Shown one piece after another: positions 37,056 through 57,099 of a stretch of 64,000 bases of DNA (its first letter is position 1; every line of letters starts with the position of its first letter). The notes beneath the pieces are model-generated. The model was not told the DNA's origin. It was given only the letters and a program-made list of their open reading frames with translations, and made no database searches. The DNA comes from Geminicoccaceae bacterium (GTDB lineage Bacteria; Pseudomonadota; Alphaproteobacteria; Geminicoccales; Geminicoccaceae), in NCBI GenBank assembly GCA_025999455.1, contig AP024683.1, positions 1,805,501 through 1,869,500 of the forward strand, read 5' to 3'. Made by a program: the position numbers and the translations under genes.

Positions 37056-37619
37056 TCAGAGCCCCGAGAGGTCGTAGATCTCGTCGAGCCGGACCTCGCC
37101 ACCCAGGACCGGGCTCGGGAAGCTCGCGTCGGCCTCGTAGGGGAGGTGCGCGATCCAGCTTCCCTCGACCTTGCGCCAGACGAGGACCCAGCGCCGCGCC
37201 GCCGAGACGAGCCAGATCTCCTGCACGCTCGGCAGCCGGCCGTAGGCCGGGACCTTGACCGTCTTGTCGAGCCGTTCGGTCGAGGGGGAGAGGATCTCGA
37301 CCACGAGCCGGGGCTCCGCGACGTAGGGTGCCGAGGTCGGCTCTTCGCAGGTCACGACGAGATCGGGGATGTAGAAGGTGCCCTCCGCCCGGTCGATCAC
37401 GAGCCCGGCACCCGGCATCGCCCGGCACGGCCGCTTGTCGGCCAGATGGCGTTCGACGAGGACGGTGAGGTTGGCGCCGATGCGCACGTGCGGTGTGAGG
37501 GGCGGATTCATCGCCACGGGCACGCCGCGCTCCAGCTCGTAGCGCGTCTCGGTCCCGTCGTCCCAGGCGAGGAACTCCTCGATCGTCATCCGCCGGATCT
37601 CGTCGAGCCGCTTGGCCAT
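37056..37619 (-). CDS. Uma2-family endonuclease-like protein (DUF820)
   Basis: A 187-residue protein with the PD-(D/E)xK pattern of the Uma2 family: YIPDLVVTCEE, RLVVEILSPSTERLDKTVKVPAYGRLPSVQEIWLV, and the N-terminal MTIEEFLAWDD. These proteins are widespread in cyanobacteria and scattered elsewhere, with unknown biological role; the nuclease activity is inferred from fold. It sits on the minus strand between imuB and dnaE2, which are normally contiguous, so it may be a late insertion. Its stop is 3 bp past the imuB stop. Confidence 0.75.
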   Translation of the reverse strand: MAKRLDEIRRMTIEEFLAWDDGTETRYELERGVPVAMNPPLTPHVRIGANLTVLVERHLADKRPCRAMPGAGLVIDRAEGTFYIPDLVVTCEEPTSAPYVAEPRLVVEILSPSTERLDKTVKVPAYGRLPSVQEIWLVSAARRWVLVWRKVEGSWIAHLPYEADASFPSPVLGGEVRLDEIYDLSGL

Positions 37620-42396: not shown

Positions 42397-44190
42397 ATGG
42401 TGCTTGCGACGCCGACCGTGAACAGGGGGCTGCCGTTCCGCACCGGAGGGTTCCGGAGCCTCCTCGAAGGGCTCGACTACGCCGCGGGCGGCGAGACGGG
42501 CGTGAACTTCTACAACGGCCGCGGCGAGCTCGAGCAGGTCCTCTCCTACCGCGAGCTGCGCGATCGGGCGGCGGCACTCGCCCCCCGGCTCGCCGGGCTC
42601 GGCCTCGCCCGGCTCGAGCGGGTCGCGATCCTCGCCGAGACGAGCCCCGAGTTCCTCGTGGCCTTCATGGCCTGCCAGTTCGCCGGGCTCGTGCCCGTGC
42701 CCTTGCCGCTGGCGCTGAGCCTCGGCACCCACCGCACCCACGTCGAGCGGCTGCGCGGCATGCTCGAGAGCTCGCGCGCCAAGGTGGCGATCGCCTCGGA
42801 AGCCTATCGCGGCCAGCTCGCCGAGGCGGCGGTCGGCACGCTCGTCACCTGGATCGGCACCCATGCCGAGCTCGCAGCCTTGCCGCCGAGCGACCGCCCG
42901 GTCCTCCCGCTCGGGCCCGACGATCCCTGCTACGTCCAATATTCCTCGGGCAGCACGAGCTTCCCGCGCGGGGTGCTCGTGACCCAGCAGGCGATCACCG
43001 CGAACGCCCGGGCGATCGCCGAGCACGGTCTGGCGCTCCGGCCGGGCGACCGCTGCACCTCCTGGCTGCCGCTCTACCACGACATGGGGCTCGTGGGCTG
43101 CTGCCTGACGCCCGTTTTGACCCAGATCAGCGTCGACTATCTCGCGACCGCGAGCTTCGCGACCCGCCCGCTCGTCTGGCTCAAGCTCTTGTCCGCGACC
43201 GGCGGCACGATCTCCTTCGCGCCGACCTTCGGCTACGAGCTCTGCGCCCGGCGGGTCGCCGCCAACGGGCTCGTGGGGCTCGACCTCTCGCGCTGGCGGG
43301 TGGCCGGGATCGGTGGCGAGATGATCCGCCCGAAGGCGCTCGCCGAGTTCGCCCGGGCCTTCGCCGCCGCGGGCTTCGACGAGCGCGCCTTCGTCCCCTC
43401 CTACGGGCTCGCCGAGGCGACCCTCGCGGTCACCTTCGCCCCGCTCGGCCGTGGGGTGCGCGCCGACACGGTCGAGCTCGGCGAGGCGTTCGAGCGGCGG
43501 CGGATCGCCGCACCGGCCGGGCCGCGCGCGCAGCGGACCCGCGCCTTCGCGATCTGCGGCCGGCCGATGCCGGGCTACACGATCGAGATCCGCGACGAGC
43601 ACGGCCGGGCGCTGCCGGAGCGACGGGTCGGCCGGGTCTGCATCAAGGGCCCGAGCCTGATGACCGGCTACGACCACAATCCCGAAGCGACCCGCCAGGT
43701 CCTGCTCGAGGACGGATGGCTCGACACCGGCGACATGGGCTATCTCGTCGACGGCGAGCTCGTCGTCACGGGCCGCAGCAAGGACCTCATCATCGTGAAC
43801 GGCCGCAACATCTGGCCGCAGGACCTCGAATGGGCGGTCGAGCGGCTGCCGGGCGTGCGGCCGGGCGACGTCGCGGCCTTCGCCGTGACGGGCGAAGACG
43901 AGCGCGAGCGGATCGTCGTCATCGTCCAGTGCCGGACCGGCGATCCGCGCCAGCAGGCCGAGTTCCGCCGCACCGTGCAGGCCGTGATCAACCGTCAGGC
44001 CGGCACCGAGTGCGAGCTCGTGCTCGCCCCACCCCGCTCCTTGACCTACACGACCTCGGGCAAGCTCAGCCGGGCCGCGGCGCGGGCGGGCTACCTCGAG
44101 GGGACGATCCGCGATCTGGGCGGGATCGTCCCGGTCGAGCCGGGGACGCCAGCCAACAGCCCGCGCGGCCCGCTCGCCGAAGTCGGCTGA
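42397..44190 (+). CDS. aasR: Fatty acyl-AMP ligase / acyl-ACP synthetase, AasR-like
   Basis: A 597-residue ANL-superfamily enzyme that activates a fatty acid as acyl-AMP and probably loads it on the carrier protein encoded at 45183. The AMP motif is YVQYSSGSTSFPRGV (about residue 180), with SWLPLYHDMGLVG and DGWLDTGDMGYL typical of the FAAL/acyl-ACP synthetase group. The final lysine region is TTSGKLSR. It is the first gene of the operon, matching the first step of Caulobacter ceramide synthesis (AasR). 16 bp separate it from the next gene. Confidence 0.88.
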   Translation: MVLATPTVNRGLPFRTGGFRSLLEGLDYAAGGETGVNFYNGRGELEQVLSYRELRDRAAALAPRLAGLGLARLERVAILAETSPEFLVAFMACQFAGLVPVPLPLALSLGTHRTHVERLRGMLESSRAKVAIASEAYRGQLAEAAVGTLVTWIGTHAELAALPPSDRPVLPLGPDDPCYVQYSSGSTSFPRGVLVTQQAITANARAIAEHGLALRPGDRCTSWLPLYHDMGLVGCCLTPVLTQISVDYLATASFATRPLVWLKLLSATGGTISFAPTFGYELCARRVAANGLVGLDLSRWRVAGIGGEMIRPKALAEFARAFAAAGFDERAFVPSYGLAEATLAVTFAPLGRGVRADTVELGEAFERRRIAAPAGPRAQRTRAFAICGRPMPGYTIEIRDEHGRALPERRVGRVCIKGPSLMTGYDHNPEATRQVLLEDGWLDTGDMGYLVDGELVVTGRSKDLIIVNGRNIWPQDLEWAVERLPGVRPGDVAAFAVTGEDERERIVVIVQCRTGDPRQQAEFRRTVQAVINRQAGTECELVLAPPRSLTYTTSGKLSRAAARAGYLEGTIRDLGGIVPVEPGTPANSPRGPLAEVG

Positions 44191-44206
44191 AGGTGGCCGG
44201 AGGCCG

Positions 44207-45151
44207 GTGACGGGCGATCCGGAACGCGTCGCGCTCACCGGGGCCACGGGCTTCCTGGGCCGCCACCTGGCCGCCCGGCTGCGGGCCCGTGGCCTTGCCG
44301 TGCGCGCCCTCGTCCGCCGCGACGATCCCGGCCTCGAGGCCACGGGTGTCGAGCTCGTCCGCGGCGATCTCGCGAACGAGGCGTCCCTCGAGGCGCTGGT
44401 CGACGGCGTCGGCACCGTCGTGCACGCGGCGGGGCTCGTTCGGGCCCGGCGGTCGGCGGAGTTCGAGGCGGCGAACGTGCGGGGCACGGCCCGGCTCGCC
44501 GAGGCTGTGCGACGGCGGGCGGAGGGCGCCCGCTTCGTCCTCGTCTCCTCGCTCGCCGCGCGTGCCCCCGGCGTCTCGGCTTATGCCCGGAGCAAGCGCG
44601 CGGCGGAGGAGGAGCTCACCCGACGCGCCGACGGGCTCCGACCGGTGATCCTCCGCCCGCCCGCGCTCTACGGGCCGGGCGACCGCGCGACCTTCCCGAT
44701 CCTGGCCCAGCTCGCCCGCGGCTTCCTCGTCGCACCGCGGGCCCGCGCGAACCGTTTCTCGCTGCTCTTCGCCGAGGATCTGGCCGAGCTTTTGGCCGAG
44801 CTCGTCGTGGAGCCGCGACCGCTCGCCGGGCCCGTGGAGCCGGACGACGGCACGCCCGGTGGCTACGGCTGGCGCGACCTCGCCGAATGCGCGGCGGCGC
44901 GGACCGGGCGGCGGGTCCGGCTCGTCGAGCTGCCGCGGCCCGTGCTCGCCGCGGCCGCCTGGCTCGCCGAGCTCGGCGCGCGGCCGTTCGGTGCGGTCCC
45001 GCCCCTCTCGCGCGGCAAGGTCGCCGAGCTCTTCCACCCCGATTGGCGGGCCGCCGACGACGGCGCGCTCTGGCGTGGCCGGCCGCGCACGACCTTCGCC
45101 GAGGGCTTCGAGCGCACGCTCGCCTGGTACCGTCGGGAGGGCTGGCTTTGA
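44207..45151 (+). CDS. cerR: NAD-dependent epimerase/dehydratase-like reductase, CerR-like
   Basis: A 314-residue extended short-chain dehydrogenase with a GTG start. The Rossmann motif is ALTGATGFLGRHLA (about residues 5-18), the region VVHAAGLVRARR follows, and the catalytic Tyr-x3-Lys is in AYARSKRAAEEE. In Caulobacter a homologous protein, CerR, reduces 3-oxo-sphinganine-type intermediates during ceramide synthesis. Here the position between aasR and acpR matches that of cerR, so I transfer the name by synteny and family. Confidence 0.8.
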   Translation: MTGDPERVALTGATGFLGRHLAARLRARGLAVRALVRRDDPGLEATGVELVRGDLANEASLEALVDGVGTVVHAAGLVRARRSAEFEAANVRGTARLAEAVRRRAEGARFVLVSSLAARAPGVSAYARSKRAAEEELTRRADGLRPVILRPPALYGPGDRATFPILAQLARGFLVAPRARANRFSLLFAEDLAELLAELVVEPRPLAGPVEPDDGTPGGYGWRDLAECAAARTGRRVRLVELPRPVLAAAAWLAELGARPFGAVPPLSRGKVAELFHPDWRAADDGALWRGRPRTTFAEGFERTLAWYRREGWL

Positions 45152-45182
45152 GCGGGGGTTGCGGAAGCGGCACGGAGCAGCC

Positions 45183-45452
45183 ATGCCTGCGGCCATGACG
45201 ACACCCGACCCCGACCGGCTCCTGGCCGAGGTGAGCGAGCTCGTGGCCCGCTTCGCCCCGCCCGGGGCGAAGCTCGAACGGACCACCGAGCTCACGAGCG
45301 ATCTGTCGATCGACTCGGTGGCGGCCATGGACCTCGTCATGGAGATCGAGGACCGCTACGGGATCGACGTCCCCGTCAACGAGATCGCCGATCTCGTGAC
45401 CTTGGGCGATCTGGTCGACCTCGTGGCGCGACAGCTCGGAGCGCGCGGCTGA
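45183..45452 (+). CDS. acpR: Dedicated acyl carrier protein, AcpR-like
   Basis: An 89-residue acyl carrier protein. The 4'-phosphopantetheine site is Ser45 in DLSIDSVAAMDLVMEIED, less acidic than the standard DSL motif. The GGAG ribosome site precedes the ATG at 45183 by five bases; a second ATG at 45195 is possible. It presumably carries the activated acyl chain from the AasR-like enzyme to serine palmitoyltransferase. The stop overlaps spt by one base (TGATG). Confidence 0.88.
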   Translation: MPAAMTTPDPDRLLAEVSELVARFAPPGAKLERTTELTSDLSIDSVAAMDLVMEIEDRYGIDVPVNEIADLVTLGDLVDLVARQLGARG

Positions 45453-46654
45453 TGGACATTTTCGACAAGTACCAGACCCTCGCGGCGCGTCGCGCCCAGC
45501 TCTTGGCCACCGGCACCGATCCGTTCCACCTCGAGATCGAGGACCTCGCGGGCCCCTGCGAAGCGACGATCGCCGGTCGGCGGACGATCTTGCTCGGCAC
45601 CAACAACTATCTGGGGCTCACCTTCGACCCGGCCTGCATCGAGGCCGGTGTCGAAGCGCTGCGCCGCTACGGCACGGGTACCACGGGCTCGCGGATCGCC
45701 AACGGCACCTATGCCGGCCATCGCGCGCTCGAGGCCGAACTCGCCGCCTTCATGGGCCGCCGCGCGGCGATCGTCTTCACCACCGGATACCAGGCCAATC
45801 TCGCGACGATCGCCGGGCTCGCCGGCAACAAGGACGCGATCTTCGTCGATTCCGACTGGCACGCCTCGATCTTCGACGGCTGCCTGCTCTCCGGCGCCAA
45901 AGTCGTCCGCTTCCGCCACAACGACCCGGAAGATCTCGACCGCCGGCTCGAGCGCAACCCGACCCCGGGCGGCTGCAAGCTGATCGTCGTCGAGGGGCTC
46001 TATTCGATGTTCGGCGACGTGGCCCGGCTCGCCGAGATCGTCGCCGTGAAGAAGAAGCACGGCGCTTTCCTGTTGCTCGACGAGGCCCATTCGTTCGGAG
46101 TGTTCGGCGCGCGCGGCCGGGGGGTCGCGGAAGAGCTCGGGGTCGAGGGCGAGGTCGACTTCGTCGTCGGCACCTTCTCGAAGTCGCTCGGGGGGATCGG
46201 CGGCTTCGCGGTCTCCGACCATCCCCGCTTCGAACTCCTGCGGGTGGCCGCGCGGCCCTACATGTTCACCGCATCCCCGGGCCCGGCGACGATCGCCTCG
46301 GTGCGCGCCGCCCTCGCCCGGATCGCCGCCCGGCCGGAGCTCCGGGCGAGGCTCTGGGAGAACGCACGGTGTCTGCACGCGGGGCTCACGCGCCTCGGCT
46401 TCGAGCTCGCCGCACCGCCGGGGCCGATCCTCTCGATCCGTCTGCCCGACGAGCGGAGTGCGGTCTTCGCCTGGAACCGGCTCCTCGAGTCCGGGGTCTA
46501 CGTCAATCTGGCGCTGCCGCCGGGCACCCCGGGCGGGGCATGCCTCTTGCGCTGCAGCGTCTCGGCGGCGCACACGGCCGAGCATCTCGAGACGGTCCTC
46601 GATCGGTTCGCGAGCCTCGCCGCGGCGCTCGCCCAGCCGCTCGCCGCCGAATAG
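45452..46654 (+). CDS. spt: Serine palmitoyltransferase
   Basis: A 400-residue PLP-dependent alpha-oxoamine synthase that condenses serine with an acyl thioester, the committed step of sphingolipid synthesis. PLP Lys244 is in GTFSKSLGGIGGF. TNNYLGLTFD, GTGTTGSRIANGTYAGH and LLDEAHSFGVFGARGRG are the family motifs. KBL and AONS are close homologs, but the neighbouring acyl carrier protein, acyl-AMP ligase and reductase genes support Spt. The next gene converges 11 bp away. Confidence 0.9.
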   Translation: MDIFDKYQTLAARRAQLLATGTDPFHLEIEDLAGPCEATIAGRRTILLGTNNYLGLTFDPACIEAGVEALRRYGTGTTGSRIANGTYAGHRALEAELAAFMGRRAAIVFTTGYQANLATIAGLAGNKDAIFVDSDWHASIFDGCLLSGAKVVRFRHNDPEDLDRRLERNPTPGGCKLIVVEGLYSMFGDVARLAEIVAVKKKHGAFLLLDEAHSFGVFGARGRGVAEELGVEGEVDFVVGTFSKSLGGIGGFAVSDHPRFELLRVAARPYMFTASPGPATIASVRAALARIAARPELRARLWENARCLHAGLTRLGFELAAPPGPILSIRLPDERSAVFAWNRLLESGVYVNLALPPGTPGGACLLRCSVSAAHTAEHLETVLDRFASLAAALAQPLAAE

Positions 46655-46668
46655 AGCCCGAGACCTCA

Positions 46669-47577
46669 GCGGACCGCGCCGCGCCGACGCAGCCGCGGCA
46701 ACAAGAGGAGCCCCGCCAGGATCGGGTGGCGGCGCTGCCAAGGCGTGAGCTCGATCCGCTCACCCGAATGGCGCTCGATCTTCCAAACGATGTAGTCGGC
46801 GCCGCCTTCGAAGGTGAACGCCGCCTTGGCGAGCCGCAGGAGCGAACGGAGCTTGCCGAGCCGGCGCCGCCGCGCCCAGAGGCGAAGGGCACGATCTTGC
46901 TCGCGCGGTGAACAGGGCGGGCGGCCGGCCAGACAGAGCCGGGCGAGCTGTTCGTAGCGGGCGGCATCGGCGGTGACGAGGCTCGTGGCGCGGCCGGGCC
47001 GTTCGGCGCGGAGCTCCGTCCGGTAGGTCTCGTGGAAGGCGCGCTCGAAGAGCGCGAGCGGAGGCGTGCCGGCCGGCACGAGTGGTCGGGTCGCGTCGAG
47101 GAGCGTGCGGACCGCCCGGGCGAGGAGGGCGTGGACGCGCCCGGCGACGGTCGGATCGGCGGCCCAGAGCAGGCGCACGGGTTGGGCGAGCCGAGCCCAG
47201 AAATAGGGCTCGAGGGTCGTCGGCGCGACGAGCCGTTCGAGCCGGGCGAGCCCTACGAGCGCCACCTTCGCGCGGACCGTGTCGTCTTCGAAGCGGGTCG
47301 CGAGGTGGTAGACGTTGGGCGGCAGGAGGGCGCCGAGCCGGCGCAGGACGGGGCCTTCCGCACCGGCGGCCCCGTCTTCGACGAGGACGAAGAGATCGAC
47401 GAGCCGGCCTCGCCATTCGCGGTCGCGGAGGCAGCTGCCGTAGAGGAGGACGGCGCGGACGGGTGCGCCGAAGCGGGCGCGGGCGGCATCCGCGAGGGTA
47501 TGGAAGACGGCCGGCACCGGCAGGGACGCTTCGGCGGCGAGGAAATCCCGGACGGGGTCGGGGGAGGGCCTCAGCAC
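46669..47577 (-). CDS. Nucleotidyltransferase-fold protein, possibly Tam41-like
   Basis: About 303 residues with a GTG start overlapping the lipid-kinase stop by 7 bp; the stop codon occupies the preceding three bases (46666-46668). The N-terminal VRAVLLYGSCLRD followed by VDLFVLVED resembles the GS...DxD-like core of polymerase-beta-fold nucleotidyltransferases, and the order of later segments (LPPNVYHL, LEPYFWARLAQPVRLLW) recalls Tam41-type phosphatidate cytidylyltransferases. The second acid is in VDL. The operon suggests a substrate made by the lipid kinase. The family match is a weak visual one and needs a profile search. Confidence 0.5.
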
Positions 47578-48536
47578 CGCACGAAGCGGACCTCCTCTGG
47601 CGCGGTGACGATCAGCGGCCTGCCGGGCAGCGGGCGGTAGAACTGGCCGTCGATCGTGATCTCGGAATTGAGCTCGAGCTCGGCGCGGGCGCTGCCGCGG
47701 CTGAAGAAGCTGTCGGGCGGCAGGTCGCGTCGCTCGCCGCCGTAGAGCACGTGGAGCGCGCGGCGCACGAGCCCTTCGGCGGGCTGGCGGATGGCGGTCA
47801 GCCGGAACGGGCGGGCGAGCCCGTTCCAGAACGGCCGCGAAGCGAGCACGAGCCGATCGAGGGTCGTCGCGAAGAGCAGGAGCTGGCGGCCTTCGCGGAC
47901 CTCGCCGTCCTCGAAGCGCATGGCGACCCGCCCGCCCTCGAGCATACCGGGTGGCCGGCGGCCCCGGGCGAGGCCCCAGAGGATCTGCGCGAGCGTGACG
48001 AAATGTGCGGCCTCGCCCTTGATGCCGAGGCTGTGGACCCGGCTCTTGCACAGGTGGATCGCGTCGGCGATGCCGAGCGCCCCCATGAACATGCCGCGTT
48101 GCGCGCCACCTTCCTCGAGGCCTTCGACGCGCAGGACCCGGCGGCGGACGAGGAAGCGATCGATCAGCCCGGCCCGGGCGGTCTCCAGGACCCGGGTCAA
48201 GGCGTCGGCACCGCGCCGGCGCAAGCCGCAATCGGCGGCGGTCATGTTGGCCATGCCGCGCGGCAGGATCGCGATGGGCGGGACCGGATCGATCAGGCGG
48301 TGCTCGAGGAGCTCGGTCAAGAGACCCTGCACGGTGCCGTCACCGCCGTTCACGACGATGAGGGCGGGGGCCAAGCGCGCGAGGTCCTTGGCGATGTCGT
48401 GCAGCCGGGCGGCGCCGTCGAAATCGAGCCGGGTGACCTCGGGGTAGCGGGCGAGCACGGCCTCGACGTCGGCCGTGCCGCGCTTGTTGCGCTCGCTGCG
48501 CCGGTTGTTGACGAAGCCGATCGCCGCGCGGCTCAT
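47571..48536 (-). CDS. Diacylglycerol kinase-like lipid kinase (ceramide kinase candidate)
   Basis: A 321-residue protein with the DAGK catalytic motif GGDGT (residues 64-68) in VVNGGDGTVQGLL and PRGMANMTAAD. Family members phosphorylate diacylglycerol, sphingosine or ceramide. In Caulobacter the DAGK-like CpgB is reported to be a ceramide kinase, and the present gene lies in a sphingolipid locus, so ceramide is a strong candidate substrate. The ATG overlaps lptG-like by 4 bp. Confidence 0.8.
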   Translation of the reverse strand: MSRAAIGFVNNRRSERNKRGTADVEAVLARYPEVTRLDFDGAARLHDIAKDLARLAPALIVVNGGDGTVQGLLTELLEHRLIDPVPPIAILPRGMANMTAADCGLRRRGADALTRVLETARAGLIDRFLVRRRVLRVEGLEEGGAQRGMFMGALGIADAIHLCKSRVHSLGIKGEAAHFVTLAQILWGLARGRRPPGMLEGGRVAMRFEDGEVREGRQLLLFATTLDRLVLASRPFWNGLARPFRLTAIRQPAEGLVRRALHVLYGGERRDLPPDSFFSRGSARAELELNSEITIDGQFYRPLPGRPLIVTAPEEVRFVRC

Positions 48537-49642
48537 GCGCCCGCCACTCCGAGCGGTGGTCCCACGGGGCGGCCGCGGCGGTGCTCGAACAGACCCGCGA
48601 GCACGAGGACGAAGCTCGCGAAGAGGAGCGGTGCGGTCCAGGCGGCGAGCGCGGGGGCGACGAGCCCGAGCTCGCCGAGCGCCAAGAGGAGGCCGTTGCC
48701 GATCAGGTGCACGAAGCCGATCGCGAGGCCCTTGGCGAAGAGCGCGAAGGTCTCACCGACCCGGGCGAGCCGCCGGACGAGCGCGAAGGGGAGGACGACG
48801 GTCGCCCAGAGCGCCACGAGGCCGGCCAGGCGGGCCTGCAGCCAGGTCCGGTGCCCTTCGGTGCCGCCGACGCCGAAACCGTCGGCCCGGATCACGCTCC
48901 AGAGCTGGGCGATCGAGAGCTCGCGCGGCAGCTTGGCCATGAGCGCCACCTGCTCGAGGTCGAGGCGCACGGGCCAGAAGAGCTCGGGCAGCCGCTCGAC
49001 CGGTCGCGCCGCGGCCGGCCGCCGCACGACCTCGTACAAGCGCCAGCCTTCGGGCCCGGGCTCGGCACGCGCCGCCTCGATCCGCTCGAGGAGCCGGCCC
49101 TGCGGGTCGAGGCGGAGGATCAAGAGGTCGCGCGGCTCGCCCATCGCCGCGGCGTCGGACGGCAGGCGCACGACGTCGTCGCCGGTGCGGACCCAGAGGG
49201 CGCCGTTGGAGGGCAGGCCCACGGTCTTGAAGTCGGCGACCCCCATGGCCCGCAGCACCGGCACGGTCGCGGGCACCGCCAGATCGTCGAGCAGGAGCTT
49301 GCCGCCCAGGACGACGAGGGCGACCGGCCACAGCCGAACCAGGAGGCCGAGGCGCGAGAGCCCGGCCCCCCACATCGCGACGAGCTCGCGGAAGCGCAGG
49401 AGATCGCTCGCCGTCAGGAGACCCGCCACGAGCACGGCCATCGGCAAGAGCTCGGTGAGGAGGGTCGGCAAGCGGATCGGGACGTAGGCGAGGAGCGCCC
49501 AGGCGGAGCCGCCGGCACGGCGGATCACCCGCGGACCCACGTCCAAAAGGTCGAAGACGAGCGCGAAACCGGTCACCGCCAACAGCACGACCGCCAGGCG
49601 GACGAGGTAGAGCCTCACCAGATAACGGCCGAGCCGGCTCAC
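48533..49642 (-). CDS. LptG-like permease
   Basis: A 369-residue LptF/LptG-family membrane protein. N-terminal membrane segments (VRLAVVLLAVTGFALVFDLLD and others), a periplasmic middle part, then C-terminal segments (LAGLVALWATVVLPFALV, FVHLIGNGLLLALGELGLV). LptG and LptF form the transmembrane part of the LPS exporter. The pair here sits inside the sphingolipid operon. GTG start, 4-bp overlaps on both sides. Whether another lptFG pair exists in the genome cannot be seen. Confidence 0.82.
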   Translation of the reverse strand: MSRLGRYLVRLYLVRLAVVLLAVTGFALVFDLLDVGPRVIRRAGGSAWALLAYVPIRLPTLLTELLPMAVLVAGLLTASDLLRFRELVAMWGAGLSRLGLLVRLWPVALVVLGGKLLLDDLAVPATVPVLRAMGVADFKTVGLPSNGALWVRTGDDVVRLPSDAAAMGEPRDLLILRLDPQGRLLERIEAARAEPGPEGWRLYEVVRRPAAARPVERLPELFWPVRLDLEQVALMAKLPRELSIAQLWSVIRADGFGVGGTEGHRTWLQARLAGLVALWATVVLPFALVRRLARVGETFALFAKGLAIGFVHLIGNGLLLALGELGLVAPALAAWTAPLLFASFVLVLAGLFEHRRGRPVGPPLGVAGA

Positions 49643-50841
49643 GGCCCGCTCCCGCGCAGCCCGAGCCGGCCGCCCGCCCAAGCCTCGAGCCGCTCGACCA
49701 GCAGATCGAAGCGCCCGCTACCTCCGGCCTGCGGCACGCGCGCCGATCGCCACCAGGTGAGGGCCGCGCCGAGCGCACCGAACGCCAGGAAGGGCAGCCA
49801 CAGACCGAGCCAGGGCGAAAGCTTGCCGTCGTCGGCGAGCGATTCGCCGAAATGGAGGATCTGGTTGTAAGCCAAAAGGAGCACGAGGCCGACCACGAGC
49901 CCGTAGGAGCGGCGGGCGCGGCGGCGGGCGATCGCAAGCGGCAAGGCCACGAGCGGCAGGAGCGGGATCGAGAGGACGCGGACGAGCCGGCCGTGCAGCT
50001 CGGCTTCGATCTCGGGCGGGTCGATGCCCTTCACCGGGCGGTCGAGGGCGGCCCGGAGCTCGGGCAGGGTGAGCTCGCGCTCGTCCTCGCCGCGTGGGCG
50101 GAAGGGCTTGGGCTCCGCACCCTCGAGATCGGTCGTGAAACTGCGGAAGCGGACGGTCGCGGCGGGTCGCTCGGCCCCGTCCTCGCCGGGCGCCGGCACG
50201 AGCTGATGGACCCCGTCCTCGAGGTCGAAGCGGATCGGCTGGTCACCCTCGGCGGCGAGGATCCGGCCGCGCCGGGCGGTGATCGTGAGCGTGCTGCCGT
50301 CCTTCATCCGGCTGAAGAGCACGAGACCTTCGAGCCGATCGCGTTCGGGGCTCAGCCGCTCGACCGCGTAGGTCGTGCCGGCGAGCGTCACGAAGGCCCG
50401 CTCGCGGATCAGGGTCAAGAAGGTGACGTTGGAAAGGGCGAAGAGCGCGGCTCGGTAGGCGTAGCGGCTGTAGGGCTGGAGGTGGCTCACGATCACGGCG
50501 TTGATCGCGAGGAGCAGGAAGCCGATCGCGACGAGCGGGCGCAACAGCTCGTGCAGGCCGCGCCCGGCGGCGAGGATCGCGTCGATCTCGCCGTCGCGCG
50601 AGAGCCGGCTGAAGACGAGGAGGATCGCGATGAAGAAGGCCGCCGGGAGGGCGACGCCCATGTAGTGCGGCACGAGATAGCCGAGCATCTCGAGCAGCAC
50701 GAGCATGCTGCCGCGCCAGCCGATCACGATGTCGAGCACGCGCAGCATGCGTTCGGCCAAGAGCACGGCCAGCGCCACGACGACGATCGCCAGCATCGGG
50801 CGGACGACGAGGCCGATCAGATAACGGCTCAGAAGACTCAT
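49639..50841 (-). CDS. LptF-like permease
   Basis: A 400-residue LptF-family protein: MSLLSRYLIGLVVRPMLAIVVVALAVLL at the N-terminus (two pieces), LVPHYMGVALPAAFFIAILL, a periplasmic jelly-roll region in the middle (about residues 130-270), and C-terminal helices. It partners the LptG-like protein, whose gene it overlaps by 4 bp. It is 103 bp downstream of the phosphoesterase gene, the only sizeable gap in the operon, so it may have its own promoter. Confidence 0.83.
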   Translation of the reverse strand: MSLLSRYLIGLVVRPMLAIVVVALAVLLAERMLRVLDIVIGWRGSMLVLLEMLGYLVPHYMGVALPAAFFIAILLVFSRLSRDGEIDAILAAGRGLHELLRPLVAIGFLLLAINAVIVSHLQPYSRYAYRAALFALSNVTFLTLIRERAFVTLAGTTYAVERLSPERDRLEGLVLFSRMKDGSTLTITARRGRILAAEGDQPIRFDLEDGVHQLVPAPGEDGAERPAATVRFRSFTTDLEGAEPKPFRPRGEDERELTLPELRAALDRPVKGIDPPEIEAELHGRLVRVLSIPLLPLVALPLAIARRRARRSYGLVVGLVLLLAYNQILHFGESLADDGKLSPWLGLWLPFLAFGALGAALTWWRSARVPQAGGSGRFDLLVERLEAWAGGRLGLRGSGP

Positions 50842-50944
50842 GCTCGGGCCGACGCGGCGGAACGCGATCGCGGGGGGAGCCGCGGGCGCCAGACGGAATA
50901 CCCGCTCACTCTGGAGCGCGCATAGCCCAAGGCGATCTCGCTGC

Positions 50945-51862
50945 CTAGGCGAGCGCGGCCACAGCTGCGCCCGGGAGTGCGACGGACTCGCGGACCACGC
51001 GGCCGTCGGGCTCGACCCGCACCGCCTCGGCCTCGATCCGGAACCGCCCGTCCGCGCCGAGGGGTGCGATCCGGTAGAGGAGCCCGCCGCCGCGCCGGTC
51101 GGGCTCGTCGGCGCGGAGCGAGGCCGAGGGGGCGGCCACGACCGGGACGGGACCCGCTGGGCCGTCGAGCGTGCCGACCTCGAGGCGGTGATCGTGGCCC
51201 GAGAGTACGAGCTCCGCCCCCTCGCGGGCGAGGACCGCCCGGAGATCCTCGGCGTCGAGCAGCGCCTTGCGCGACGGGCTCCAGCCTTCGACCGGTGGGT
51301 GGTGGACGAGCACGACGCGGCAGAGGCCGGCGCGCGCCGCTTCGCCGAGGTGACCGTCGAGCCGGGCGAGCTGCGCGCGACCCAGGCGGCCGGCCGCGTC
51401 GCCCCAGGGCCGCGGGACGGCGCTCGACAGGCCCACGAAGAGGAGGGGCCCCACCCGGCGCAGGAAGGGAAAGGCGTCGGGGCCGGCGACGCCTTCCATC
51501 CAGCACCGCCAAAGCGGCCAGAAGGCCTCGGCGGCACCGGCCACGTAGGCGTCGTGGTTGCCGGGGATCAGCGTGATCCGCTCGGGCGGGGCGAGTCGCT
51601 CGAGCCAACGCCGGGCGCGCTCGAACTCGCCCGGCAACGAGATGTTCACGAGGTCACCCGTGATCACCCAATGATCCGGCCGAGCCGCGGCGAGGGCCGC
51701 GACGGTCGCCTCGAGCACGGTCGAAAGATGCGCCCGCCGGCGGCGCAGTTGCCACGAGAGGAAGCCCGTGGCCCGCTTCGAGGCGAGCTCGCGCAGCCGC
51801 GGTCGGGGCAGGGGGCCGAGATGGACGTCGCTCAGATGGGCGAGCCGGAAGACGTCGCTCAC
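50945..51862 (-). CDS. Calcineurin-like metallophosphoesterase
   Basis: A 305-residue metallophosphoesterase. The dinuclear-metal motifs are visible: HLSDVHLG, VITGDLVN, IPGNHDAY, LVHHPP and SGHDH. The substrate is unknown; in a lipid operon it may remove a phosphate from a lipid head-group intermediate or nucleotide. GTG start, 4-bp overlap with the NTP-transferase gene. Confidence 0.8.
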   Translation of the reverse strand: MSDVFRLAHLSDVHLGPLPRPRLRELASKRATGFLSWQLRRRRAHLSTVLEATVAALAAARPDHWVITGDLVNISLPGEFERARRWLERLAPPERITLIPGNHDAYVAGAAEAFWPLWRCWMEGVAGPDAFPFLRRVGPLLFVGLSSAVPRPWGDAAGRLGRAQLARLDGHLGEAARAGLCRVVLVHHPPVEGWSPSRKALLDAEDLRAVLAREGAELVLSGHDHRLEVGTLDGPAGPVPVVAAPSASLRADEPDRRGGGLLYRIAPLGADGRFRIEAEAVRVEPDGRVVRESVALPGAAVAALA

Positions 51863-52671
51863 GAGGGGCTCCGGGCGGCGCGCCGGGCGAGGATCGCCTC
51901 GGCGAGGGCGAGATCGGCCGGGCGGTCGACGTCGATCGCCGCCTCGCCGATCGGGATCGACACCGCGGCGACGCTGCAGCCGAGCGTTCGCGAAGCGCGC
52001 GCCATCGCCCGGGCGAGCGTCAGCCGGCCGCTCAGATAGAGGAGGAGGTTGCCGAGGCCGAGCAGGCGGACGATCCGCCAGGGACGCTTGCGCTCGGCCT
52101 CGACGCGCCGCCAGAAGGCGAGCGCCGGGCGGGCCGCATCGCCGCGCAGGAGGAACAGGTTGGCGCCCGAGAAGCGGCCGTCGGCGAAGCGCCACCAGGT
52201 CCGCCGGGTCGACGGAGCCGCGGCGCGCACCGCCCATTCGGGCGCGAGCCCGACCACGACCGCGGCACCGCTCGCGAGCGCGGGGGCCAGGAACGCTTCC
52301 AGGATCGCCCGGTCGAGGAGCGGGTGGTCGGCCGTGGTGACGAGGAGCGGCAGCCCCTCCGTGTGGGCGAGCCCCGCCTCGACGCTCGCCGAGAGCGAAG
52401 CCTCCGGCGGCCGCAGCGCGAGCCGGCCTTCGGCCAGGAGCCGGGCGATCGCCGGCAGCCGCTCGAGCCCCGCCTCGGGTTCGGCCAGGACGAGGATGCG
52501 GCGGATCGCGGCCCTGTCGGCGAGTGTGTCGACCACGTGCGCGACCATCGGCCGGCCGGCGAGCGGCGCGAGACATTTGAAGGGCACGCCCGCGGCGCGC
52601 GCGACCGGATCCACCTCGCCCGGCCGCGCGCCCGCGAGGACCAGGGCGGCGAGCGCTTCGGCGCCGTTCAC
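51859..52671 (-). CDS. NTP-transferase family protein
   Basis: A 270-residue MobA-like nucleotidyltransferase. The motif LAALVLAGARPGEVDPVAR (starting at about residue 7) is the glycine-rich loop, followed by KCLAPLAGRPMVAHVV and VTTADHPLLD. Such enzymes make CDP-, GDP- or UDP-linked products or guanylylate cofactors. In this locus a CDP-linked head-group donor is plausible. GTG start, 4-bp overlaps with both neighbours. Confidence 0.7.
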   Translation of the reverse strand: MNGAEALAALVLAGARPGEVDPVARAAGVPFKCLAPLAGRPMVAHVVDTLADRAAIRRILVLAEPEAGLERLPAIARLLAEGRLALRPPEASLSASVEAGLAHTEGLPLLVTTADHPLLDRAILEAFLAPALASGAAVVVGLAPEWAVRAAAPSTRRTWWRFADGRFSGANLFLLRGDAARPALAFWRRVEAERKRPWRIVRLLGLGNLLLYLSGRLTLARAMARASRTLGCSVAAVSIPIGEAAIDVDRPADLALAEAILARRAARSPS

Positions 52672-53807
52672 GCCAGCTCCTTCACGTAGATCCGGTAGGT
52701 CTTGTAGGGCCGGCCGCCCATCAGACGGATCAAGGCGTCGGTCCGTCGATTGTCCTCGAGCACCCAGGAAAGCTCGGCACCCCGGGTGCCGCGGGCCCGA
52801 TGATGCTCGTGGACCGCGCGGATGACGGCGAGCGCCAGAGCGGCACCCCAAGGCCCGTTCTGGAAGGCGCGGCGCACACCCATGAGCGGCATGCGGCCCT
52901 CGGGGATGCCGCGGACCTTGAGCCGCCACAAGAGCTTCGCCCAGCCGAAGGGCCACAATCGGCCGCGCAGATCGCGGATCGCGAGGTTGAGGTTGGGCAG
53001 GGTCACGACCATCGCCGCGGCCTCGCCGTCGAGCTCGCCGATCGCGAAATCCTCGGCGCGGACGAGCGGGCGGATGCTCGTCGCGAGATATCGGGCCTCG
53101 GCCTCGTCGAACGGCAGGAAGCCCCAATTGTCGGCCCAGGCGTCGTTGAAGATCGCGCAGATGGTGGCGATTTCCTCGGCGTAACGGCGCATGTCGAGCG
53201 GCCGCACGCGGATCTTCCCGGCGCGCAGACCGCGCTCCAAGAGCCGGCTCGCCGCTTCGGGCCAATCGCGCTGCACGTCGTACCAATAGCAGATCAGATC
53301 TTTCGCTTTGCGGTAGCCGAGCGCCTCGAGCCGGCGGGCGTACCAGGGCCGATGATGGCCCATCATCATGCTGGGTGGGGTGTCGAAGCCCTCGACGAGG
53401 AGGCCGCAGGTATCGTTGATCGAGGGGTCGAAGGGGCCGGCGACCCGCGTCATGCCGCGCTCGGCGAGCCAGCGCTCGGCGGTGCCCGTGAGGGCCGCGA
53501 ACACGTCCGGGTCGTCCTCGCCCTCGAGAAAGCCGAAATGGCCCGTGGCGTCGCCGTAGCGCTCGAGATGCGCGCGGTTGATCTGGGCGCTGATCCGGCC
53601 GACGTCGCGGCCGCCGCGGCGGGCCACGAAGAGCGCCATCTCGATGCGCGCGAGGAACGGGTTCTTCGAGGCGTCGAGATGCTGGCGCCGCTCGAAGTCG
53701 AGCGGCTTCACCCAACAGGGATCGTCCCGATAGATCGGGTCGGGGACCGCGAGGAAGCGGGCGAGGCCCTTCGGGCCCTCGACCCGCTCGACCGTAACCT
53801 CCGCCAC
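52668..53807 (-). CDS. GNAT-like N-acyltransferase, bacterial ceramide synthase candidate
   Basis: A 379-residue protein with a GNAT-like profile. Its N-terminus (IYRDDPCWVKPLDFERRQHLD) and C-terminus (NRRTDALIRLMGGRPYKTYRIY) match the acyltransferase reported as bCerS in Caulobacter in general layout. bCerS adds an acyl chain to the amino group of a sphinganine-type base. Other landmarks are GFLEGEDDPDVFAALTG and GFDTPPSMMMGHHRPWYA. GTG start. It lies 10 bp after the hydroxylase gene. Confidence 0.65.
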   Translation of the reverse strand: MAEVTVERVEGPKGLARFLAVPDPIYRDDPCWVKPLDFERRQHLDASKNPFLARIEMALFVARRGGRDVGRISAQINRAHLERYGDATGHFGFLEGEDDPDVFAALTGTAERWLAERGMTRVAGPFDPSINDTCGLLVEGFDTPPSMMMGHHRPWYARRLEALGYRKAKDLICYWYDVQRDWPEAASRLLERGLRAGKIRVRPLDMRRYAEEIATICAIFNDAWADNWGFLPFDEAEARYLATSIRPLVRAEDFAIGELDGEAAAMVVTLPNLNLAIRDLRGRLWPFGWAKLLWRLKVRGIPEGRMPLMGVRRAFQNGPWGAALALAVIRAVHEHHRARGTRGAELSWVLEDNRRTDALIRLMGGRPYKTYRIYVKELA

Positions 53808-53817
53808 GGCCCCCCGC

Positions 53818-54579
53818 TCAGGCGGCGCGGCGGGTCCGCCGGGCGGCGAGCTCGGCCTCGCTCGGCGAGGCTTGCGCGACCCAGGGATAGCGCTCGCGCT
53901 CCTCGGCCGTGTAGCCGAGATTGAAGGTCGTGGGGCTGCGCGGGACCTCGCGCGGATGTTCGTAGAAGGTGCCGAGCAGACGGTCCCAGAGCCCGCTCGT
54001 GATGCCGAAATTGCCCTGTTCGTTGTGGAAGTGGTGGGCGAGGTGGCGCTTCTTGATCTCGCGCAGCCAGCGGTTCTTGGGCGTGAAGGGCAGGTGCTGG
54101 ACGCAGTGGCAGAACTCGTAGCCGGCGAAGAGCAGGAGCGCGGTCGCGAAGGCGGCGAACGCGCCGGCACTGCCACCCACGGCCCAGCCGAGCGGCAAAG
54201 CGACGAGCGCGATCGTGGGCAGGGTCGTGTAGAGTGCGCCGAAGAGGACGGCGAGGTCGTGCGGATCGGCGTGGTGGTCGTAGTGGATCCGCTTCCAGAC
54301 CTTGGCGGTGAGCGGTGACTTGTAGAGGAAGCGGCCGTGGAGGACGAAGCGGTGGAGGAGATATTCCGCCGCCGGGTAGACGAGGAGGGTGACGGCGACC
54401 GCCGCGAGCGGGCCGAGCCAGCCTTCGGCGAACCGCAGGGTGAGGACGATCGAGACGGCGGCGAGCACGAAATAGACGATGATCGAATAGTGGGTGAAAT
54501 AGGCGACGACGAGCTCGCCGAGCGTCATCTTGTCGAGCTGGTAGCGACGGTGGACCCAAGGCCGCCAAGACATCGCCAT
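53818..54579 (-). CDS. Fatty-acid hydroxylase / sterol-desaturase family protein
   Basis: A 253-residue di-iron membrane hydroxylase. Histidine boxes are clear: HRFVLH, HYDHHADPHD, HCVQH and RHLAHHFHNEQ, with about four membrane segments between them. Relatives hydroxylate fatty acids, sphingoid bases or carotenoids. In this locus an acyl chain or sphingoid base of the ceramide is the likely substrate. It is the first gene of the minus operon; a second ATG lies two codons in. Confidence 0.82.
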   Translation of the reverse strand: MAMSWRPWVHRRYQLDKMTLGELVVAYFTHYSIIVYFVLAAVSIVLTLRFAEGWLGPLAAVAVTLLVYPAAEYLLHRFVLHGRFLYKSPLTAKVWKRIHYDHHADPHDLAVLFGALYTTLPTIALVALPLGWAVGGSAGAFAAFATALLLFAGYEFCHCVQHLPFTPKNRWLREIKKRHLAHHFHNEQGNFGITSGLWDRLLGTFYEHPREVPRSPTTFNLGYTAEERERYPWVAQASPSEAELAARRTRRAA

Positions 54580-54735: not shown

Positions 54736-57099
54736 TCAAGCGGCGCTCGGCTGCTCGCTCATGAGCCGCCGCACCCGCTCCGCCACCCGGCTCAGATCGT
54801 CGAGCGGCTTCGGCCGCGCCATCGGCTCCTCGGTCCCGCCGAGCCGGCGGACGAGCCCGCGCGCGACGAGGGCGCGGTGCAGCTCGACCGGGTCGGGCGG
54901 CAAGTTGAGGAGGCCGCGCGTGGCGAGATGATCGACGAAGCGGCCGAGCAGGTGCTGCTGGTGCGGCGTGCCGCGATAGGTCGTCCCACCGCCCACGAGC
55001 AGCCGGGCGAAGCGCACGAGCGGCCGGCCGAGCGGCACGCGATCGTACCAGCGCGGCAGGTCGAGCAGCTCCGTGGGCTTACCCGCGAGGCAGGCCTCGG
55101 CGAGGGTCACGAGCTCGTCGGCGCTCACCACGACCCGGTCGGCGAGGGTCAGGAAGGCGACACGGGCGCCCTCGTCCCCCGCTTCGTCGGCCCGCACCTC
55201 GACGAGCGGCAGCCCGGCCAAGGCCTCGCGCAGCGCGGCGACCGCCGCTTCGGGCGTCTTCCGATCGAGATGGAGGAGGAGAGCCCCGCCGCTCGCGCGG
55301 AGCTCCGCGGCGAGCCGCGCACCGGCGCGCGCGAGGACGTCCGGGGTGACCCGGTAGCCGGCGCGGCCGGGGCCCAGGAGGAGGGCGGTCCAGGGGCGCG
55401 GCAGTGCGGCGAGGCGGGCGCTCCAGGCGGCGTGCGCGGCCTCGACCTCCGCCGGATCGAGCCCGGCGAGCGGCGCCGCCACGGGCAGGACGTTGTCACG
55501 CAGCGGCAGCCGCGCCTGCGGCGTCGCGACGATCAGGTCGAAGAGCTCGAAGGGGGCGCGCGGCCGGCCGATCTGGACGAGCCGGGTCCGCCCGCCGGAG
55601 GCCCGGCGGATCCAGAGCGCCGCGGGCACGCTCTTGCGACCCGAGGCGACGACGAGATCGGGCCAGGGCGGTCCGAGCGGGTCGCTCGCGGCGAGGTCGA
55701 CGCTCGCGAGCGAAGCGCCGAGCACGAGGTTGGGCAGCCGTCGGCGGGCGTTGAGGACGAGCCGCCGGCTCTCCCAGGGCCAGCCGAGGGCGCGGGCGAG
55801 CTCTTCGACCTGGCGGTCGTGGACCGGATCGCCGGTGACGAGGGCCCAAACACGCGGCTGACCCGGATCGGCCGTCCGCCGGCAGGTGAAGGCGCGCGGG
55901 CCGTCGGAGGCGAAGCGCGGGTCGGGTGCGACCTCGAGACGCCACGAGGGGCCGGGCCGGCGCGCCGCCGCCTCGGCGATCCGTCGCCGCCACCATTCCG
56001 GGCTCGCGAGGCCGCGGTCGGCCCGCGCCCGCACGGTCGCGAGGACGGTGCGCTCGGCCCGGGCGAAGAGGGTGTCCAGGACCCAGGCGATGTCGGCGGG
56101 CGGTACCCGGTCGAGGAGGTCGACGGCGAGCACGGCATCGGCCGGAGAGGCTGCGGCGAGCCCGGGATCGCGGGCGAGGTCGCGGCTTTCGACGGCGAGC
56201 CCCTCGGGCGGGTCGGCGAGCTCAGGGGCGTGGCCGAAGCCCAGGACCAGGAGCCGCTTCGCGCCGGTGTCGGCGAGGAGCCGCCGTGCCGCTTCGGAGA
56301 GCCGCGCGGGCGGGCTTTCGGGCCAGGGCTCGTTCGCGAAGGCGAGCTCGGTGAAGGTGGGCGAGGGCCGGTCGGGGCCGAAGATCTGGTAGCCCGCCGC
56401 GTCGGCCTCGCGCTCGAGATCGTGCCAGATGTAGGCCAAGGGGTTCGGATGGTAGGAATAGTCGTCCGGGAAGGGCTCCCAGGGCTGCTGATGCAAGGCG
56501 GTGTAGTGCAGGCACTTGGTCCGCCCCTCGACATATTCCTGGTCGCGGGCGTTCCAGTGCGGATCGCAGGGGCCCCAGAGGCCCGGCACGGCGGCCGGTT
56601 TCTTGATGAGCGCGTGCTTGCCCTCGCGGGCCGCCGTGGTGCGGTTCCACAAGGGCAGCATCTTCGCGCAATCGATCAGCATGACCGAGGTTTCTTCGGG
56701 CGAGATCGCGAGATAGCCGTGCTCGCCCATCTCCAGATCGAAGAGCTCGGCCGGATCGGCCAGGTAGATCTGGTCGACGTCGTTGTAGATGGCGCGCCCC
56801 GTGCCACCGGCGAGCTCGGGGATGGCGAAGCGGTACTTGGTGAAGCCGGTGCGCCAGCCCTTGCGGTCGAAACCGGCGAGATCGCTCATCCGGTAGATCT
56901 CGTAAGTGCGGGCGGGATCGCGGTGCCGCTCGATCGACCAGAAGAAGATCCGCTCGGCGCGGTACTGGGCGGGCTCGGTGCCGAGGAAGATCCGCACGGG
57001 CGGCTTCGGGCTCGGCGTCACGCCGGGCCGCGGCGGCAGCACCACGCACTCCGGCTGCTCACGGAAATAGGGCCAGCTGCGGGCCGTGCTCGAATCCAT
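54736..57099 (-). CDS. Three-part protein: glycosyltransferase-like, methyltransferase-like and ELM1 domain
   Basis: A 787-residue protein. Residues about 30-250 look like a nucleotide-sugar glycosyltransferase: PPVRIFLGTEPAQYRAERIF, EIYRMSDLAGF and AIYNDVDQIYLADP with DVD at 107-109. About 265-410 resembles a Rossmann fold with the glycine stretch LVLGFGH, perhaps a methyltransferase. From about 415 to 720 is a DUF1022/ELM1-type region (VWALVTGDPVHDRQVEELARALG, QIGRPRAPFELFDLIVATPQ, LPLRDNVLP). Such a fusion is unusual. A GGAGGA ribosome site precedes the ATG. An ABC exporter gene ends 50 bp upstream. The function is unknown; glycolipid or surface glycan work is an inference. Confidence 0.7.
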   Translation of the reverse strand: MDSSTARSWPYFREQPECVVLPPRPGVTPSPKPPVRIFLGTEPAQYRAERIFFWSIERHRDPARTYEIYRMSDLAGFDRKGWRTGFTKYRFAIPELAGGTGRAIYNDVDQIYLADPAELFDLEMGEHGYLAISPEETSVMLIDCAKMLPLWNRTTAAREGKHALIKKPAAVPGLWGPCDPHWNARDQEYVEGRTKCLHYTALHQQPWEPFPDDYSYHPNPLAYIWHDLEREADAAGYQIFGPDRPSPTFTELAFANEPWPESPPARLSEAARRLLADTGAKRLLVLGFGHAPELADPPEGLAVESRDLARDPGLAAASPADAVLAVDLLDRVPPADIAWVLDTLFARAERTVLATVRARADRGLASPEWWRRRIAEAAARRPGPSWRLEVAPDPRFASDGPRAFTCRRTADPGQPRVWALVTGDPVHDRQVEELARALGWPWESRRLVLNARRRLPNLVLGASLASVDLAASDPLGPPWPDLVVASGRKSVPAALWIRRASGGRTRLVQIGRPRAPFELFDLIVATPQARLPLRDNVLPVAAPLAGLDPAEVEAAHAAWSARLAALPRPWTALLLGPGRAGYRVTPDVLARAGARLAAELRASGGALLLHLDRKTPEAAVAALREALAGLPLVEVRADEAGDEGARVAFLTLADRVVVSADELVTLAEACLAGKPTELLDLPRWYDRVPLGRPLVRFARLLVGGGTTYRGTPHQQHLLGRFVDHLATRGLLNLPPDPVELHRALVARGLVRRLGGTEEPMARPKPLDDLSRVAERVRRLMSEQPSAA

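Follow-up and report, generated by a model that had tools for sequence, protein, structure and literature searches.

A probable sphingolipid synthesis and export locus in a Geminicoccaceae bacterium that has probably lost lipopolysaccharide

LptF and LptG are inner-membrane proteins that normally export lipopolysaccharide (LPS). A second version of the pair, LptF2/LptG2 (CC_1156/1155), belongs to the sphingolipid gene cluster CC_1168-CC_1152 of Caulobacter; in the excerpts of PMC11324152 drawn on throughout this report, a role of LptF2/LptG2 in sphingolipid transport was proposed and left untested, and the route of sphingolipids to the outer membrane was stated as unknown. The same excerpts identify CC_1160 as the ceramide kinase, CC_1161 as CDP-diacylglycerol (CDP-DAG)-synthase-like, CC_1158 as a phosphoesterase, CC_1154 as CerS and CC_1153 as CofC-like, place cerS in an operon separate from the other four ceramide genes, describe CpgA (CC_1159) and CpgD (CC_1152) as needed in Caulobacter for the second phosphoglycerate, and note that Sphingomonas koreensis lacks LPS. 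Further excerpts report that CpgD makes CDP-glycerate, as shown biochemically (PMC12275187), and that Spt and bCerS are cytoplasmic and CerR periplasmic (PMC11087976). Here we describe a related locus in a 64,000-nucleotide stretch of contig AP024683.1 from a Geminicoccaceae bacterium; this whole stretch is called the window, and coordinates count from its first letter. The reading we favour, and consider likely, is that the locus is a sphingolipid factory and export station in an alphaproteobacterium that probably lost LPS.

Lipid A enzymes and the single LptF/LptG pair

The source genome is one contig of 3.76 Mb and is 99.7% complete. We judged the loss of LPS from searches for three lipid A enzymes, LpxC, LpxB and LpxK. 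None of the three had a match in the source genome, and five relatives of the same genus were likewise negative; the same searches gave matches in other relatives and in the E. coli and Caulobacter controls. Within the family of the source genome (code f1; 31 genomes searched, source included), the bacterial ceramide synthase bCerS was present in 25 genomes. LpxC was absent from 17 of these 25 and present in 6/6 family members without bCerS, where it scored 331-361 bits. A survey of 387 genomes of the class, each at least 90% complete, in which serine palmitoyltransferase (Spt) was called at E <= 1e-110, revealed 47 genomes without LpxC: 33 of the 55 Spt-bearing genomes, compared with 14 of the 332 without Spt (odds ratio 34, Fisher p 3e-22, genomes treated as independent though related). 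Twenty of the 33 were recognised by their absence from the LpxC match list. On this gene content, the source genome has probably lost LPS.

We regard it as very improbable that LPS is present and that its enzymes were missed as highly diverged or replaced. Divergence does occur in the family, with LpxC of four members (G012, G016, G024, G028) scoring only 184-202 bits, but the same search recovered LpxC at the higher scores given above in the six bCerS-less members, all three enzymes were unmatched in a nearly complete single-contig genome, and the canonical lptFG genes are gone from their usual site, as described below. Of the eight bCerS-bearing family members with an LpxC match (G009, G010, G011, G012, G016, G021, G024, G028), the first five were also searched for LpxB and LpxK. 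Both enzymes were matched in G009 and G010. The other three (G011, G012, G016) have an LpxC match of 194-250 bits and neither LpxB nor LpxK; this LpxC may be a leftover or a repurposed deacetylase.

The source genome encodes exactly two LptF/LptG proteins, both in the sphingolipid operon, and one LptD, far from that operon. In five LpxC-bearing relatives from the family (G007, G009, G013, G014, G022) the canonical site consists of pepA beside lptF-lptG-lptD-surA; the comparison covers relatives with pepA in view, the G023 contig being cut before pepA. At the corresponding site the source genome has pepA beside lptD-surA-ksgA-gmk, without lptF or lptG (L116:2358-8762 = C1:3010357-3016761), and the same pepA-lptD junction without lptFG was found in G042 (L117). 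The relatives carry lptF-lptG between pepA and lptD, which suggests that canonical lptFG disappeared from its ancestral position and that lptD was retained. LptD was matched in 31/31 genomes of the family. It was kept in 18/18 LpxC-less genomes with bCerS, compared with 2/5 without (n = 23; in four of the five, completeness is only 71-91%).

Copy number followed the same division. Among the 22 LpxC-bearing Spt genomes, 20 had four LptF/LptG proteins, one had five pieces and one had two. For the LpxC-less Spt genomes we counted 28 of the 33, namely the source genome and 27 from outside its family: 20 had two proteins, four had none, two had three (one of them through a fragment under the cut-off), one had four, and one had a single protein at a contig end. 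Four further family members (G001, G006, G017, G019) and G042, counted separately, had two each. The distance between the pair and spt was measured in 20 LpxC-less genomes, those of the 28 with both on one contig, and was no more than 14 kb in 17 of them; the list leaves out G101, G198, G241 and G322 (different contigs), the four pairless genomes and the five counted separately.

Phylogenetic trees of LptF (86 rows) and LptG (85 rows) each resolved two clades, one canonical and one of sphingolipid type. They were built by quick searches, with branch support from SH-aLRT rather than bootstrap, and the C. crescentus (Caulobacter crescentus) LptF/LptG proteins are not among their rows. In thinned mixture-model trees of 69 rows each, the split had an SH-aLRT support of 100 for both LptF and LptG; these trees omit 17 loci that the full trees keep, comprising five long-branch or odd rows (L097, L233, L241, L243, L227) and twelve near-duplicates. 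The window pair fell outside the lptD-linked canonical clade and grouped with spt- or cerS-linked copies, which in the sphingolipid-type clade come from many families. All LpxC-less rows were on the sphingolipid side (LptF 35/35, LptG 34/34, window included), and both pairs of the LpxC-less genome G322 were found there. Among the LpxC-bearing genomes with two pairs, 14 of 15 had one pair in each clade in the full trees.

We infer from this gene content that the LptFG pair may, together with LptD, export a sphingolipid in place of LPS. On the simplest account, the second LptFG pair works with ceramide lipids, and LPS and its own pair could then be lost, with LptD left serving the sphingolipid. 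An alternative is that LptF/LptG and LptD carry some other envelope glycolipid or polymer-lipid, one not based on lipid A, and that the sphingolipid travels by a different route, possibly the neighbouring ABC exporter together with AsmA/TamB-type bridges. Sphingolipid genes do occur without the pair, in the four pairless LpxC-less genomes, and a glycosyltransferase-like protein and the ABC exporter adjoin the operon. We nevertheless judge this alternative unlikely: the pair sits inside a seven-gene block that is complete in 15/27 loci, it is close to spt in most of the genomes measured, and its clade holds the spt/cerS-linked copies of many families.

Several observations weigh against sphingolipid export by this pair in place of LPS. 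Association does not prove the cargo of LptFG. LpxC is matched in 8/25 bCerS-bearing family members and kept in 22/55 Spt genomes of the class. In G100, Spt and LpxC occur together but the sole pair is canonical, and in G332, the exception among the two-pair genomes, the spt-proximal pair falls on the canonical side as a long branch. LptF/LptG is absent altogether from four LpxC-less Spt genomes (G091, G269, G335, G395), and G322 has four such proteins. Genomes of f13, the family of G042, have the pair far from spt, at 316-529 kb in G160, G309 and G371, or on a different contig, in G241; in G017, a member of the source family, some 83 kb separate the pair from spt, although the pair is next to bCerS. 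Finally, the published CPG2 headgroup does not follow for the source genome, in which CpgA and CpgD were not found.

The four pairless genomes belong to family f61, genus g76, measure 5.4-5.8 Mb and are Reyranella-like by gene-order resemblance to L178. In the 20-kb spt locus of one of them (L084, from G091), no kinase, Tam41-type gene or LptFG was seen.

Ceramide and headgroup genes

All five ceramide pathway genes (AasR, CerR, AcpR, Spt, CerS) are present in the window, with cerS in a separate operon from the others. AasR, CerR and AcpR were assigned through protein family and gene order, not against C. crescentus sequences. AasR scored 777 bits against the NF006624 fatty acyl-AMP ligase model (cut-off 600), and CerR is a candidate 3-ketosphinganine or oxo-ceramide reductase. 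Spt scored 602.0 bits against the serine palmitoyltransferase model NF047599 (cut-off 500) and fell below the other curated models, at 330 bits for BioF (cut-off 426) and 312 bits for the BioF/Kbl acyltransferases (cut-off 535). An earlier note on this DNA, made before any database search, had named a biotin-pathway or glycine acyltransferase score as one result that would overturn its reading; the protein passed the Spt model and stayed below the BioF and Kbl cut-offs. Among solved structures, phmmer placed Spt entries closest (2x8u and others; lowest E 7e-134), and we assign the protein firmly, on sequence, as a serine palmitoyltransferase. That the Spt-like enzyme makes some other alpha-oxoamine, with the operon building a different aminolipid, is hardly credible. 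The enzyme family is built of close paralogues and the genome holds a second BioF/Kbl-like protein, but Spt clears its own cut-off, misses those of the other models and sits with AasR, CerR, AcpR and bCerS. The second protein, an acyltransferase at G000:C1:1092629-1093684 (L002, L119) that is 34% identical to Spt, is likely a housekeeping paralogue.

The bCerS candidate, termed GNAT-like in the earlier note, had no match in Pfam (E <= 0.01) or NCBIfam (E <= 0.05), and none by sequence among solved structures up to E 1. It is 49% identical over residues 4-378 to a relative in Caulobacter sp. D5 that itself precedes a CC_1153-like gene; the closest named match, at 88% identity, is in a Geminicoccaceae metagenome-assembled genome (L120). 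The earlier note had proposed that the locus could make, modify and possibly export a sphingolipid. This is supported by the Spt, bCerS, CerR, kinase, Tam41-fold and hydroxylase genes and by the genome's only LptF/LptG pair, which together suggest a capacity to make, phosphorylate, probably activate by CTP, hydroxylate and export such a lipid; the lipid itself is predicted from the genes.

The places of the ceramide kinase CpgB and of CpgC in the Caulobacter cluster are taken here by a DAGK_cat kinase with a GGDGT motif and by a Tam41-fold protein, candidate counterparts assigned by place, the second also by fold, rather than against C. crescentus sequences. The kinase matched seven NCBIfam lipid-kinase models, YegS included, each time below the model's cut-off. 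The protein at 46666-47577 was unmatched in Pfam (E <= 0.05) and NCBIfam (E <= 0.01), had nothing by sequence among solved structures, and by profile gave only a generic nucleotidyltransferase at E 0.015; its predicted fold alone was informative. YGS and D are invariant in 23 homologues. In its predicted model (pLDDT 89.5), the top five Foldseek matches were all Tam41, and VIA-align gave Z 18.3 against Tam41 7ecd (root-mean-square deviation 3.2 over 221 residues), 14.7 and 14.4 against the other two Tam41 entries, and 7.6 for the next unrelated family. Tam41 makes CDP-diacylglycerol. Since the protein has a predicted Tam41 fold and sits in a ceramide operon, we propose it as a candidate CTP:ceramide-1-phosphate cytidylyltransferase that would make CDP-ceramide. 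For CC_1161, a domain match likewise led to the suggestion of a nucleoside diphosphate (NDP)-activated ceramide in the excerpts of PMC11324152.

CpgD (CTP:phosphoglycerate cytidylyltransferase) and CpgA (CDP-alcohol phosphatidyltransferase) were searched with Pfam-checked alignments of cluster homologues (five for CpgA) rather than with C. crescentus proteins. CpgA had 0 matches in the source genome and the best CpgD match was 33.4 bits, over residues 2-69 only; in the same searches, G057 gave 510 and 341 bits, respectively. With CpgA unmatched and only short partial matches to CpgD, the second phosphoglycerate of CPG2 is not expected here. These results bear on a further alternative, an ordinary Caulobacter-type CPG2 cluster in an LPS-making bacterium with the extra LptFG pair as an accessory. 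The same ceramide genes in the same order, several shared modifying genes and the Spt genomes that keep LpxC speak for it, but genome content already contradicts it: the CPG2 enzymes are missing or match in part (at most 33 bits), LpxC, LpxB and LpxK are unmatched, and the source genome has no second LptFG pair. We consider it quite improbable.

The other nucleotidyltransferase, at 51859-52671, had CofC (TIGR03552) as its best NCBIfam match, below the cut-off, and 2dpw as a solved relative (E 1.7e-28). It is 46% identical to the open reading frame (ORF) that immediately follows cerS on the Caulobacter sp. D5 contig (L183). We considered and rejected this protein as CpgD; its best model is CofC, as the excerpts of PMC11324152 say for CC_1153, and Caulobacter sp. 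D5 has a distinct ORF of CpgD type some 3 kb beyond the matching one.

Taken together, these genes suggest the following mechanism. AasR would load a fatty acid on AcpR, Spt would condense the acyl chain from AcpR with serine, and Spt, bCerS and CerR would together make ceramide, whose acyl chain the hydroxylase could hydroxylate. The kinase would then make ceramide-1-phosphate, from which the Tam41-fold protein would form CDP-ceramide with CTP, and the CofC-like nucleotidyltransferase and the phosphoesterase would finish a phosphate-linked headgroup, to which the neighbouring glycosyltransferase might add a sugar. The lipid would be flipped by the ABC exporter and taken from the inner membrane by the sphingolipid-type LptF/LptG, which would send it over the Lpt bridge to LptD; the sphingolipid would thereby fill the outer leaflet where LPS would sit.

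Gene layout, conservation and neighbours

The features of the locus are collected in Table 1. The earlier note had described two convergent gene runs ending 11 bp apart, the plus run in the order of the Caulobacter ceramide genes. Codon-usage gene calls agree with the two runs, two TAG stop codons stand in the sequence at 46652-46654 (plus strand) and 46666-46668 (minus strand) with 11 bp between them, and the order aasR-cerR-acpR-spt matches CC_1165-CC_1162 as given in the PMC11324152 excerpts. Pfam family scans bore out the hydroxylase, lipid kinase, phosphoesterase and LptF/G-like permeases of the minus run, and of the two nucleotidyltransferase-type proteins one was recovered by Pfam and the other by its predicted Tam41 fold. 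The span of 42397-54579 held for both runs, but the upstream end probably lies farther out, at about 58889, because the two genes upstream stay beside the block in 5/5 same-genus loci.

Table 1. Features of the sphingolipid locus in window coordinates
Feature	Coordinates	Strand	Evidence
aasR, acyl-ACP (acyl carrier protein) synthetase candidate (fatty acyl-AMP ligase)	42397..44190	+	NF006624, Pfam AMP-binding, operon position
cerR, NAD(P)-dependent epimerase-type reductase	44207..45151	+	Pfam Epimerase 1.4e-25; order as CC_1164
acpR, specialised acyl carrier protein	45195..45452	+	Pfam PP-binding 7.6e-11; DLSIDS attachment site in translation
spt, serine palmitoyltransferase	45452..46654	+	NF047599; solved Spt relatives
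Tam41-fold nucleotidyltransferase, CpgC/CC_1161 counterpart by place and fold	46666..47577	-	predicted structure
lipid kinase, GGDGT motif, CpgB/CC_1160 counterpart by place	47571..48536	-	Pfam DAGK_cat 8.9e-12
LptG, sphingolipid-type clade	48533..49642	-	Pfam LptF_LptG 1.3e-39; trees
LptF, sphingolipid-type clade	49639..50841	-	TIGR04407 LptF 230.1 bits at cut-off 230; trees
calcineurin-like metallophosphoesterase, CC_1158-like candidate	50945..51862	-	Pfam Metallophos 4.8e-14
MobA/CofC-like nucleotidyltransferase, CC_1153 counterpart	51859..52671	-	Pfam NTP_transf_3 4.1e-12
bCerS, bacterial ceramide synthase candidate	52668..53807	-	Caulobacter sp. D5 relative
fatty acid hydroxylase (sterol desaturase superfamily)	53818..54579	-	Pfam FA_hydroxylase 1e-20
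multidomain glycosyltransferase-like protein, probable unit member	54736..57099	-	Pfam Mito_fiss_Elm1 2.3e-51
MsbA-like ABC exporter	57150..58889	-	Pfam ABC_tran 1.3e-31, ABC_membrane 8.3e-20; conserved neighbour in genus

Neighbouring genes of the minus strand overlap by a few bases or sit close, with 10 bp between hydroxylase and bCerS and 103 bp between phosphoesterase and LptF. Pfam LptF_LptG spans the full length of both window permeases. For the hydroxylase, which adjoins bCerS in 20/27 loci examined, the codon-usage gene call favours a later start at 54528. Searches for promoters and terminators yielded 0 promoters and 2 terminator-like sites against 4.4 expected, nothing above chance. 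The seven-gene block runs from the Tam41-fold nucleotidyltransferase through kinase, lptG, lptF, phosphoesterase and the CofC-like nucleotidyltransferase to bCerS, and since these seven genes are collinear in 15/27 related loci, the arrangement is not due to chance. Contig ends interrupt seven of the 12 loci without the full collinear block, and in L021 the seven genes fall into two blocks. More distant genomes of the class also have kinase and Tam41-type genes that face spt. We also found bCerS and parts of the cluster on eight contigs with labels from outside the alphaproteobacteria (L151, L157, L160, L161, L167, L181, L197, L198; Desulfobulbaceae, delta-proteobacterium, Desulfobacterales, Geobacter, Nitrospinota, Nitrospirota, Rokubacteria, Deltaproteobacteria); either the cluster is wider than the alpha-, beta- and gamma-proteobacteria, or it has moved, or some bins are mixed.

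In each of the five same-genus loci (L031-L035), and in some others, genes for an ELM1-type protein and an MsbA-like exporter are found upstream of the block on its own strand. The exporter scored 250 bits against the MsbA model, below the cut-off of 602, and is probably the inner-membrane flippase of the unit. The ELM1-type protein is GT8-like at its N-terminus, where the Glyco_transf_8 match is weak (0.13), and has an ELM1 GT-B C-terminus. The GT8-like start carries an invariant NDVDQIY, and the protein's best PDB fold match is the plant galactolipid synthase MGD1 (E 3.5e-8, TM 0.21 by query), from a predicted model of only fair quality (pLDDT 73, N-terminal part poor). We take the glycosyltransferase role suggested by this model as a lead. 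Its middle part reads like a methyltransferase, with weak methyltransferase matches in the L125 relative, and in L121, L122, L125 and L128 the protein is matched as separate stretches, in places on opposite strands. Elsewhere in the window are a Y-family polymerase-like gene (35551-37053; IMS, ImuB-like) and a large gene at 37737-40964 that, from its translation, we take to be DnaE2-like, with a Uma2-type gene on the opposite strand between them (37056-37619); the polymerase-like and Uma2-type genes were assigned by Pfam.

Significance and comparison with described systems

The matches listed in our literature search included no report of lost LPS or of sphingolipids in Geminicoccaceae and none that related LptFG copy number to LPS loss; this is weak evidence of novelty. 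What is new here is the comparative genome evidence on LptF2/LptG2, the transport idea itself coming from the excerpts of PMC11324152, whose suggestion becomes a sharp, testable claim of two LptFG clades. In most genomes counted, canonical LptFG disappears with LpxC, while the other clade stays with the ceramide genes. The locus also draws attention to a family whose LPS may be replaced by sphingolipids without the CPG2 enzymes, and the Tam41-type model suggests a CTP-activated ceramide intermediate. A broader proposal, on which our confidence is evenly balanced, is that in LPS-less alphaproteobacteria the Lpt machine changed its cargo: LptF2/LptG2 from the ceramide operon and the old LptD would deliver a sphingolipid whose headgroup is built through Tam41-type CDP-ceramide, and LPS and canonical lptFG would have been lost repeatedly, mostly where the second pair pre-existed.

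The Tam41 CDP-DAG synthases (7ecd, 6ig4, 6ig2) share with the window protein a predicted fold over 206-221 residues (Z 14.4-18.3) and the YGS and D that are invariant in its homologues. They differ in that identity is 12-13%, with no Pfam match for the window protein, and in that their substrate is phosphatidic acid, whereas ceramide-1-phosphate is predicted here from context. Compared with the LptF/LptG that serve LPS, the window pair belongs to a clade apart from the lptD-adjacent copies, and its genome is without detected LpxC, LpxB or LpxK.

The Caulobacter cluster CC_1168-CC_1152, as excerpted from PMC11324152, has in common with the window the order aasR-cerR-acpR-spt and the ceramide kinase, CDP-DAG-synthase-like, phosphoesterase, LptF2/LptG2, cerS and CofC-like partners. 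In contrast, CpgA and CpgD were not found in the source genome, no counterpart of the LptC-like CC_1168, of CC_1157 or of CC_1167 was seen among the operon genes, to which this comparison was confined, and the hydroxylase sits inside the source-genome operon. Caulobacter, an LpxC-positive control here, keeps LPS, and its LptF/LptG of the cluster are second versions, where those of the window are the only pair.

The sphingomonads offer a further comparison, through G042, which we take to be sphingomonad-like. This genome resembles the source genome in being LpxC-less with Spt, in keeping LptD and in having pepA beside lptD without lptFG. The two differ in organisation: in genomes with the family code of G042 the LptFG pair is far from spt (G160, G309, G371) or on another contig (G241), whereas the family of the source genome keeps one compact locus with phospho-headgroup genes in 15/27 loci.

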